From: Halapricum salinum
GTDB lineage: Archaea > Halobacteriota > Halobacteria > Halobacteriales > Haloarculaceae
DNA length: 64,000 bases
Assembly (NCBI RefSeq): GCF_004799665.1
Contig: NZ_CP031310.1
Coordinates: forward strand, 1,542,887 to 1,606,886
Reading direction: 5' to 3'
The position numbers were made by a program, and so were the translations under genes. Below the pieces are notes generated by a model, which was given only the letters and a program-made list of their open reading frames with translations, made no database searches and was not told the DNA's origin. Positions 5,465 to 27,717 of the stretch are shown here, piece by piece (the first letter of the stretch is position 1; each line of letters starts with the position of its first letter).

Positions 5465-5549
5465 GCCAGAGTAGCCTAGCCCGGCCAAGGCGGTTGCTTC
5501 GAGAGCAACTGTCCGTCAGGACTCAGGAGTTCAAATCTCCTCTCTGGCG
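5465..5549 (+). tRNA. tRNA-Ser(CGA)
   Basis: Acceptor GCCAGAG (5465-5471) pairs with CTCTGGC (5542-5548), discriminator G at 5549. The anticodon stem GTTGC/GCAAC encloses TTCGAGA, with anticodon CGA at 5500-5502. The long variable arm TGTCCGTCAGGACT marks a class II tRNA. The T stem AGGAG/CTCCT encloses TTCAAAT. CCA is not encoded. A 23-base copy of its 3' end recurs at 5674-5696. Confidence 0.95.
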
Positions 5550-5606
5550 CTTCTGTCGACGCCACACGAAGAGCGAAGCGAGTCGTCGGCGTCGACGAAC
5601 GACAGC

Positions 5607-5696
5607 GGAGATTTGAGCAGGCGAGTCGCAGCCCGGACCGACGCGAAGCGTCGTACGCCCGGAACGCCTCGACGAGTTCAAATCTCCTCTCTGGCG
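5607..5696. repeat. Palindromic element built on tRNA-Ser 3' end
   Basis: The right side (5674-5696) repeats the last 23 bases of tRNA-Ser exactly. The left side, GGAGATTTGAGC at 5607-5618, is the inverted complement of the T-arm part (TTCAAATCTCC). Between them is a GC-rich imperfect hairpin with GACGCGAAGCGTC at its centre. The sequence after each tRNA end is also alike: CCACACGAAGAG occurs just downstream of both. The architecture matches the elements beside tRNA-Tyr at 13.6-13.9 kb. Confidence 0.75.
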
Positions 5697-13643: not shown

Positions 13644-13742
13644 TCCGCGCTCCCCGATTTGAACAGATGACAGACGTTCCGGGCGTGCGGCGCTTCGCGC
13701 CGTTCCAGGGCTGCGACTCGTCTGCTCAAATCGTGTCGGGCG
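13644..13742. repeat. tRNA-Tyr 3'-end palindromic element, copy 1
   Basis: TCCGCGCTCCCCGATTTGAA at 13644-13663 (plus C) matches 20 of 21 bases of the tRNA-Tyr 3' end (13911-13931). It is followed by an imperfect hairpin (GTGCGGCGCTTCGCGCCG) and then GCTCAAATCG at 13724-13733, the inverted copy of the T-arm end. Its centre, CGTTCCGGGCGT...GGCTGCGACTCG, also matches the element beside tRNA-Ser when that is inverted. Confidence 0.75.
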
Positions 13743-13752
13743 TGAATACACA

Positions 13753-13778
13753 CGCGGCGCTCGAAAGTGAGCGCCGCG
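13753..13778. repeat. Perfect 10-bp hairpin between tRNA-end repeats
   Basis: CGCGGCGCTC (13753-13762) pairs with GAGCGCCGCG (13769-13778) around a GAAAGT loop. It lies between the two tRNA-Tyr 3'-end copies and could be a processing or termination structure. Confidence 0.6.
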
Positions 13779-13785
13779 AGAAGTA

Positions 13786-13870
13786 TCCGCCCTCCCCGAT
13801 TTGAACTGAGGAAGACATTCCTGCTCGCTACGCTGTGCGGGCTGTGACTTCCCGGCTCAAATCGGGGAGC
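13786..13870. repeat. tRNA-Tyr 3'-end palindromic element, copy 2
   Basis: The 21 bases at 13786-13806 are identical to the 3' end of tRNA-Tyr at 13911-13931. The inverted partner GCTCAAATCGGGGAGC is at 13855-13870. The loop region contains GGAAGACATTCCTGCTCGCT, nearly the same as 21543-21562 in intergenic copy A. A further perfect stem TCGGCGC/GCGCCGA follows before the tRNA. Confidence 0.75.
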
Positions 13871-13910
13871 GATCTACTTGACAGTCGGCGCGTTGCGCCG
13901 ACAGAACAAG

Positions 13911-13984
13911 TCCGCCCTCCCCGATTTGAACGGGGGACAAGTCGATCTACAGTCGACTGCTCTACCAGTCTGAGCTAAGGGCGG
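13911..13984 (-). tRNA. tRNA-Tyr(GTA)
   Basis: On the minus strand the acceptor CCGCCCT pairs with AGGGCGG, discriminator A. The D arm reads TAGCTCAGACTGGTAGAGCA, the anticodon loop CTGTAGA holds GTA, and the T arm CCCCG TTCAAAT CGGGG is perfect. 74 nt, no encoded CCA and no intron seen. Its 3' end is duplicated twice downstream. Confidence 0.95.
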
Positions 13985-21479: not shown

Positions 21480-22090
21480 GCTCGGACCAACCGCGATTGC
21501 TACAGACAACAACGTCTCGAAAGCCCTCACCACGATCGCACCGGAAGACGTTCCTGCTCGCTTCGCTCGCGCCTCCCGCACCCCCGGTCGCGGCTGTCGC
21601 CGCGAGAGCAAGCTCTCGCGAGCCCTGCGTCGCTTCGCTCCGCAGGACGCCGCGACACGCTTCCTGACCGCCCCGCGGTGGCCGAGAGTGAGTGCCACGA
21701 CGACAGTCGTGGCCGAGCGTAGTGAGAGAGCGACGCTCTCTCGGACCTCGCGGTGTAACCGCGAGAACCCGGGGAAGGGCAGGCCTGCTGTGCGGTTCTG
21801 TTGCGGAACCTGGCGGATGAAAGGGCGAGGCTCGCGTGGCGGCAGGGAGACGGCGTCGCCGTCTCCATTCGAGGCGGTGAAACCGCCTCGCAGCCGCCAC
21901 GTTTGAGGAGGTCGGTGCAACCGACCTCCCGCTGGCGCTGAAAGAGCGTCGCTGAGCGACCTCTATCCGAATCCAGTGAGGATATGTCGCTCAGCGGCCG
22001 CCAGCGAGTCGAGGGCTTTCCCGCGTTGTTGAACCCTGCTGTAACACCTCAGTCTCCTAGCCAGCGAGTGGAGGGCGTTCCGTGCTTGTT
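21480..22090. repeat. Palindrome-rich intergenic block, copy A of RNA-like family
   Basis: No coding frame with normal composition. Perfect or near-perfect hairpins are packed end to end, e.g. CGAGAGCAAGCTCTCG and GAGGTCGGTGCAACCGACCTC. The conserved helix is GAAAGGGCGAGGCTCGC (21819-21835) with GCGAGTCGAGGGCTTTC (22004-22020): GAAAG/CTTTC, two G-G, C-G, tandem G-A/A-G, G-C, G-U, then stem. A hairpin with a CTCTAT/ATAT loop precedes the 3' strand. GCGAGTGGAGGGCGTTCC follows as a second tail copy. An inverted tail copy is at 21517-21530. Confidence 0.65.
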
Positions 22091-27639: not shown

Positions 27640-27717
27640 ATGTCGGATTTCCACGACACGGAGGATAGAGGAAGTCGCCACACGGCGGCTGGCCGCGAAA
27701 TTCTACCCCATGACTGA
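27640..27717 (+). CDS. Possible 25-residue leader peptide of leuA
   Basis: ATG 27640 opens a frame, MSDFHDTEDRGSRHTAAGRE then ILPHD, whose TGA overlaps the leuA ATG by 8 bases. The upstream TATA box is placed for a leaderless start here, so ribosomes would traverse it before reaching leuA. It is not leucine-rich, so classical attenuation is unlikely; translational coupling is the simplest role. It could also be a chance frame. Confidence 0.4.
   Translation: MSDFHDTEDRGSRHTAAGREILPHD

Follow-up and report, generated by a model that had tools for sequence, protein, structure and literature searches.

tRNA-anchored palindromic modules downstream of tRNA genes in Halobacteriales and a two-module array at tRNA-Tyr of Halapricum salinum

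The window analyzed here, a stretch of 64,000 nucleotides of the Halapricum salinum genome, contains two tRNA genes. The gene for tRNA-Tyr (GTA) was located with ARAGORN and Rfam (RF00005) on the minus strand at positions 13911–13984, with tRNA positions 53–73 corresponding to 13931–13911. Two units lie downstream of it on the same strand and consist, in transcript order, of a trailer hairpin, an inverted T-arm, a core hairpin and a copy of the tRNA end. Unit 1 starts with a trailer hairpin at 13877–13910 that was found among the inverted repeats and has a perfect stem (13884–13891 with 13895–13902); its homologue in genome G003 differs by a paired change. It is followed by the inverted T-arm CTCCCCGATTTGAG (13856–13869, minus strand; inverted repeats I3 and I7), of a type that is host-specific across the family, by a core of the short form (AGTCACAG ... 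GGAATGTCT; 13807–13855; 81.9 bits with covariance model R2), and by a copy of tRNA-Tyr positions 53–73 (13786–13806) that is identical in 21 of 21 bases. Unit 2 (13785–13644) follows the same plan with a longer core. It comprises a trailer hairpin with a perfect 10-bp stem (13753–13778; inverted repeat I11), the inverted T-arm CGATTTGAGC (13724–13733, minus strand), a core of the long form (AGTCGCAG ... CCCGGAACGTCT; 13665–13723) and a copy of positions 53–73 with 20 of 21 bases matching (13644–13664). The core scored 99.2 bits with model R1, to whose training set unit 2 belonged.

Both copies and the inverted T-arm ends had been proposed in a sequence-only reading of this DNA and were confirmed at these positions. 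The same reading described the unit as tRNA end, hairpin and inverted tRNA end; these parts are real, but their order on the tRNA strand starts with the inverted arm. The extra perfect hairpins that it placed between the units are present (13884–13902 and 13753–13778) but are not specific to the units. The data do not support the trailer hairpin as a hallmark of the element, as hairpins at module-free tRNA genes are nearly as long. When RNA folding was compared with that of shuffled sequences, unit 1 was far more stable (z = -5.1); unit 2 reached z = -3.7 with its trailer, and its hairpin alone was not unusual (z = -1.1).

The other tRNA gene of the window, encoding tRNA-Ser (CGA; 5465–5549, plus strand; positions 53–73 at 5529–5549), is followed by one equivalent unit (5550–5696) which the earlier reading had not listed. 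It is composed of a trailer hairpin region recognized from the sequence (5550–5606), the inverted T-arm GGAGATTTGAGC (5607–5618), which matches tRNA-Ser and not tRNA-Tyr, a core of the long form (5619–5675; 91.9 bits with R1, whose training set included it, and 51.4 bits with R2), and a 21/21 copy of tRNA-Ser positions 53–73 (5676–5696), all on the plus strand.

In a plain DNA search, pieces of the unit were found to adjoin other tRNA genes in relatives. The two covariance models, R1 for the long and R2 for the short form, were built from 28 units. At E ≤ 1e-5 the short-form model matched 69 of 72 Halobacteriales genomes and none of 223 other genomes of the phylum. Relatives with matches had up to 34 each, part of which are reverse-strand echoes of the palindromes. 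A tRNA gene, which itself lies outside the model, was present at 89 of 100 fetched loci; since these loci were picked by model match, they are not an independent sample of the link to tRNA genes. Altogether, 130 units were parsed as lying downstream of a tRNA on the same strand, and their hosts include tRNAs for Ala, Arg, Asn, Asp, Cys, Glu, Gly, Leu, Lys, Phe, Pro, Ser, Thr, Tyr and Val. Model matches beside tRNA genes occur, for example, in Haloferax gibbonsii (tRNA-Leu), Halosimplex carlsbadense (tRNA-Lys), Halorubrum salipaludis (tRNA-Lys) and Haloarcula amylolytica (tRNA-Ile). The initial pattern GATTTGA-N-AGTCRCAG was too loose and matched mainly unrelated bacteria; only matches that also had a covariance-model match were kept. 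It is secure that a family of tRNA-anchored modules is widespread in Halobacteriales. No family described in Rfam covers the units, and no description of the repeats was found in an open-access collection of papers, which lacks most subscription articles.

Specific core patterns had no match in viral contigs, the model found none in 80 viral loci matching the loose pattern, and the tRNA-Tyr region had no match in a phage collection; a viral origin was rejected. Plasmid matches of this region fall in the tRNA part.

With at least 16 of 20 matching bases as the criterion, 28 downstream copies were counted at 18 of the 43 tRNA genes of H. salinum, all with an inverted arm. A control in which tRNA ends were swapped between loci of this genome gave a mean of 1.15 copies and a maximum of five. 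One more match, at a distance of 802 nt, lacks an arm. One ARAGORN call, to which the only two upstream matches belong, is apparently a degenerate copy. Every tRNA gene examined in this genome, with modules or without, has a pyrimidine at position 74, directly following the discriminator. No copy was found at 35 tRNA genes of genome G027, whose congener G059 has 16 matches. An outgroup genome had four copies only, all without arms; judging by their positions, these are probably tandem duplicates of whole tRNA genes.

A typical module measures about 105 bp (median insert, 105 bp), contains trailer, inverted T-arm and core, and has positions 53–73 of the host tRNA on both sides. The copied end proposed earlier for tRNA-Tyr holds at that locus; elsewhere the end is that of each host tRNA itself, and its span is 53–73. 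Identity between copy and host is approximately 0.9 to 1.0 within this span and drops to 0.27 at position 51 and 0.51 at position 74. Both values are near the shuffled expectation. The copy is sharply bounded, by position 53 in the T-loop and by the discriminator (73). Pairing of the inverted arm extends over tRNA positions 53–64, and where these are variable (57, 59 and 62–64) the arm tracks the host; modules at Lys and Gly tRNAs with TTCAATTCCC, for instance, have the arm GGGAATTGAA.

The stem formed by arm and copy (11–12 bp) is followed by a spacer and then by a second stem in the core, made up of AGTCR and YGTCT and continuing outward with double-sided changes. This stem contains a conserved T.T mismatch (82 of 108). 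Its R-Y pair was G-C in 102 and A-T in six cases; the collection script demanded R and Y, so this pair could be broken only by G.T or A.C. At the two outer pairs, five G.T stood against 203 Watson-Crick pairs. The last parts of the core are an asymmetric loop and a tip whose length varies greatly. Aligning the units and testing covariation had been suggested by the sequence-only reading, and the paired stems do covary: in a MAFFT alignment, which was not fitted to the structure, covariation exceeded that in all 500 shuffles. As relatedness alone can at times beat shuffles, a control with slid partners matters too, and it gave at most 0.12 as compared to 0.35 for the true pairs. Some units (L331, L334) are reduced to arm, short hairpin and copy.

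A one-base insertion in the T-loop of the copy, TTCAAATC to TTCACAATC, recurs in 13 of the 130 units in different isotypes and genomes (e.g. L329, L330, L352, L364, L392, L394 and L404); the arm is still complementary to the unmutated tRNA. The same core with other arms (GGGAAC/GTTCCC) and without a tRNA was seen in H. salinum (L327, 635–715; G000:C1:1760334-1760414), directly after an ORF whose C-terminal end resembles an aminoacyl-tRNA synthetase.

Sister species differ by whole modules with their flanks intact. At tRNA-Leu(GAG), G001 exceeds G002 by one module, which adjoins the tRNA; the arm of this new module fits TTCAAAT while the tRNA reads TTCGAAT. In a module common to both genomes, arm and copy have changed together at position 57. 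At tRNA-Tyr, a module is present in G003 and absent from G001, and the sequence past the G003 copy is what directly follows the tRNA in G001. At tRNA-Ser(TGA), a G001 module lies proximal to one that, like the tail, G001 and G002 have in common, and at tRNA-Phe the two genomes have a common tail and modules of different similarity clusters. Tandem duplication also enlarges arrays, as seen from ABAB patterns, and in the Lys-CTT arrays the common module is the proximal and not the distal one. Two genomes alone do not allow a gain to be distinguished from a loss. Where a gain could be placed, it mostly separates the tRNA from older modules.

The tRNA-distal copy was the most diverged, with 1.70 as compared to 0.21 mismatches (p = 6e-5), and this bias remained when arrays of near-duplicate modules were left out (21 to 3; p = 6e-4). 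In 26 units the copy and the tRNA end that precedes it upstream are not the same, and in 21 of these the arm fits the upstream version. This mainly shows decay of the copy, given that the upstream end is mostly the tRNA itself.

With respect to candidate machinery, the reverse transcriptase domain RVT_1 was found in none of 23 genomes. Cas1 is absent from eight module-bearing genomes (G000, i.e. H. salinum, and G003, G005, G010, G024, G058, G207, G331) and the Y1 transposase (Y1_Tnp), whose past activity is not excluded, from five (G000, G055, G058, G207, G331). As they are missing from module-bearing genomes, reverse transcriptase, Cas1 and Y1 transposase were rejected as standing requirements. 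A retroelement that copies tRNA 3' ends would need a reverse transcriptase, which these genomes lack (RVT_1), and in the copies seen trailer sequence comes after position 74. A search for the Phage_integrase family detected tyrosine recombinases in all 23 genomes, including five without model matches. Since module-free genomes have them too, this is permissive evidence only.

Several orphan modules have a tyrosine recombinase gene within about 1 kb, with a tRNA-end fragment between gene and module (tRNA-Phe type in G000, G060 and G254; tRNA-Tyr type in G254). Because of this intervening fragment, such modules were taken as displaced by an integrated element and not owned by it, and the integrases were rejected as owners of the neighbouring orphans. 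One displaced module, in G017, lies 12.5 kb downstream of its tRNA-Tyr gene; in H. salinum the sole tRNA-Phe gene is 70 kb from the orphan module and in the right orientation. We read these cases as integrated elements that pushed existing modules away from the tRNA. Integrase-bearing elements use the same tRNA ends as the modules. In the G060 element, GGCATTTGAACC-CCT-GGTTCAATGC directly precedes TGGGAGGCGGCA, i.e. an inverted T-arm stands beside the element's own att site (attR). Modules for which no tRNA is nearby (L320, L346, L348, L370 and L383) come after a fragment of the tRNA 3' end and mostly lie beside a tyrosine recombinase gene, as though integrated elements had moved the array away.

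Observed are, in summary of the genomic comparisons, the family, its matching to the host, the boundaries, the covariation, whole-module differences between sister species and, in most cases, polarity. The reading of the tRNA-Tyr feature which we favour, at a probability of roughly 0.4, is a two-module array of short, ORF-less, tRNA-anchored cassettes of Halobacteriales put in by site-specific recombination. According to a review, archaeal integrases target the T stem-loop and the 3' end of tRNA genes, and several of them probably cut where a tRNA loop begins or ends (PMC8371274). A module would enter between tRNA positions 53 and 54, at the T-loop's 5' edge, where T-loop-class tyrosine integrases are presumed to cut. 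The tRNA would stay intact, with positions 54–73 restored and the old 3' end displaced downstream. The putative recombination site consists of arm-copy stem, spacer, T.T-mismatch stem, asymmetric loop and variable tip, and may be used as a folded single strand like integron attC. The enzyme would be a tyrosine recombinase of the host or of an element acting in trans. Both the crossover at the T-loop edge and the action of such an enzyme on the module hairpin are inferred.

Recombination is supported by the sharp 53/73 boundaries, which match a T-loop att block, by the empty and filled tRNA-Tyr sites of G001 and G003 and the extra proximal modules at Leu-GAG and Ser-TGA, and by the divergence of distal copies, the host-specific arm and the covariation. 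The presence of tyrosine recombinases in 23/23 genomes, with RVT_1, Cas1 and Y1 transposase being dispensable, and the integrase-bearing elements on the same tRNA ends, one with an inverted T-arm beside attR, point in the same direction. Against it speak the lack of any observed excision or circle, the very small size of a double-stranded circle of about 125 bp, the need of 53/54 integration for an isotype-specific acceptor end, yet similar cores occur at many isotypes, the misfit of arm and tRNA at Leu-GAG of G001, and the proximal module in common in Lys-CTT arrays. Moreover, recombinases occur in module-free genomes, and the fit of the arm to the upstream end comes mostly from copy decay.

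The main rival, unlikely in our estimate and nonetheless accounting for host-matched copies at least as simply, is target-duplicating, MITE-like transposition. Here, an unknown transposase would put a palindrome of trailer, arm and core just 3' of the tRNA by a 21-bp staggered cut; the host 3' end would be duplicated automatically, and the arm would be fitted later by quasi-palindrome correction. This is the simplest account of host-matched copies at most isotypes, and it agrees with the joint change of arm and copy at position 57 in the G001/G002 module and with casposons, whose insertion at tRNA 3' ends duplicates the target (PMC4046053). However, the module has no recognizable constant termini, Cas1 and Y1 transposase are missing in several module-bearing genomes (no other transposase families were examined), and cuts exactly at the T-loop edge and the discriminator better fit recombination or recognition of structure.

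A role in RNA seems improbable; no transcription data are available. Transcription of the tRNA precursor would continue through the array, and its hairpins would, for example, mask displaced 3' ends from competing with the real one, give rise to small RNAs or serve as processing signals. The constant strand and distance to the tRNA, the covarying stems with conserved mismatch and loop, and the stable fold of unit 1 all speak for it. Against it stand the scarcity of G.T pairs in the second stem, the decay of copies without matching changes in the arm, the lack of modules at most tRNA genes of H. salinum and all examined in G027, and whole-module turnover between sister species. When masking was tested by RNA folding, pairing with the copy was favoured even with a shuffled arm, probably an effect of the multiloop terms, which made this test unusable.

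We consider it quite improbable that modules are scars of larger tRNA-integrated elements, in which deletion of the interior brought both element ends together between attL and attR, and that they later spread only via homologous recombination and tandem duplication. Integrase-bearing elements do occur at module-bearing tRNA genes, one with an inverted T-arm next to attR, and ABAB duplications are found in arrays, but the cores form one family across the order in constant orientation to the tRNA. Also, in the cases seen, the larger element adjoins an intact module with attR in between, and the module is thus not the end of the element. Finally, a local accident by tandem slip of the tRNA-Tyr locus, which the sequence-only reading would have inferred if relatives lacked the unit, is refuted by units after tRNA genes of most isotypes throughout Halobacteriales (69/72 genomes) and by 28 copies against 1.15 expected, even though tandem duplication does enlarge arrays.

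Returning to site-specific recombination, among the closest parallels are archaeal tyrosine-integrase elements, which like the modules target the T-loop to 3' end, leave the tRNA whole and displace a partial copy downstream (PMC8371274). In contrast to these elements, the modules are only about 105 bp long and contain neither ORF nor integrase, for which the median insert is too short. They also form one sequence family at most isotypes, occur in tandem arrays and carry a host-matched inverted arm. Integron cassettes likewise form arrays beside a fixed site with apparent gain at the anchored end, and attC resembles the module hairpin in its outer stem, spacer, inner stem with unpaired bases and variable tip. 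The attC site has the sequence GTTRRRY and folds into an R-L-loop-L-R hairpin. GTTRRRY is unmatched in the modules, whose copy begins with GTTCAAAT or GTTCGAAT. Unlike integron cassettes, modules lack genes and ORFs, are anchored on a tRNA gene and have a host-dependent outer stem, and no integron integrase (IntI) has been shown for them (only the general Phage_integrase family was searched).

Like the modules, CRISPR arrays consist of direct repeats separated by inserts, seem to grow next to a fixed leader and have a decayed distal repeat, and casposons are found at tRNA 3' ends with target duplication (PMC4046053). Module inserts, however, are related palindromes and not spacers, and eight module-bearing genomes lack Cas1. 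Modules combine an integron-like layout with CRISPR-like polarity and are members of neither group, as defining features of both were tested and are lacking. SMR-A of Haloquadratum is also haloarchaeal, palindromic, about 110 bp long and without ORF, has an unknown mobilizer and uses palindromes as targets (PMC3119063). SMR-A targets IS605-type elements and PATEs without target duplication (PMC3119063), whereas modules target tRNA genes and give a 21-bp repeat of the tRNA end. For palindromic elements derived from IS200/IS605 (PATE, REP), the Y1 transposase is unavailable in five module-bearing genomes. MITEs and SMRs are short, ORF-less and dispersed and have constant terminal inverted repeats; the modules are short and dispersed, and the only clear inverted repeat in them is the host-matched arm and copy.

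Tentatively, and with more doubt than trust, the modules may represent a distinct class of polarised tRNA-anchored arrays in which a gene-less cassette, by a hairpin matched to the T-arm of its target, steers a recombinase to the T-loop. If true, one element family could colonise most tRNA isotypes of a genome without damage to the tRNAs. The sequence after many haloarchaeal tRNA genes is a changing landscape of small modules and not a plain trailer, and offers a natural system for studying tRNA gene targeting and the use of most isotypes by one element family. Searches for genomic islands that rely on tRNA-end duplications as landmarks can be misled by module copies. With H. gibbonsii carrying modules, tests in the genetically tractable archaeon Haloferax look feasible.

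Two minor observations concern the remainder of the window. A weak match of the short-form model (27 bits; 21521–21593, minus strand) has no tRNA nearby and shares the GAGCGAAGCGAGC tip and GGAACGTCTTCC with the modules, but has no T-arm. At 27654–27706 on the plus strand, the leuA-Halobacteria RNA (RF03001) was detected with 72 bits.
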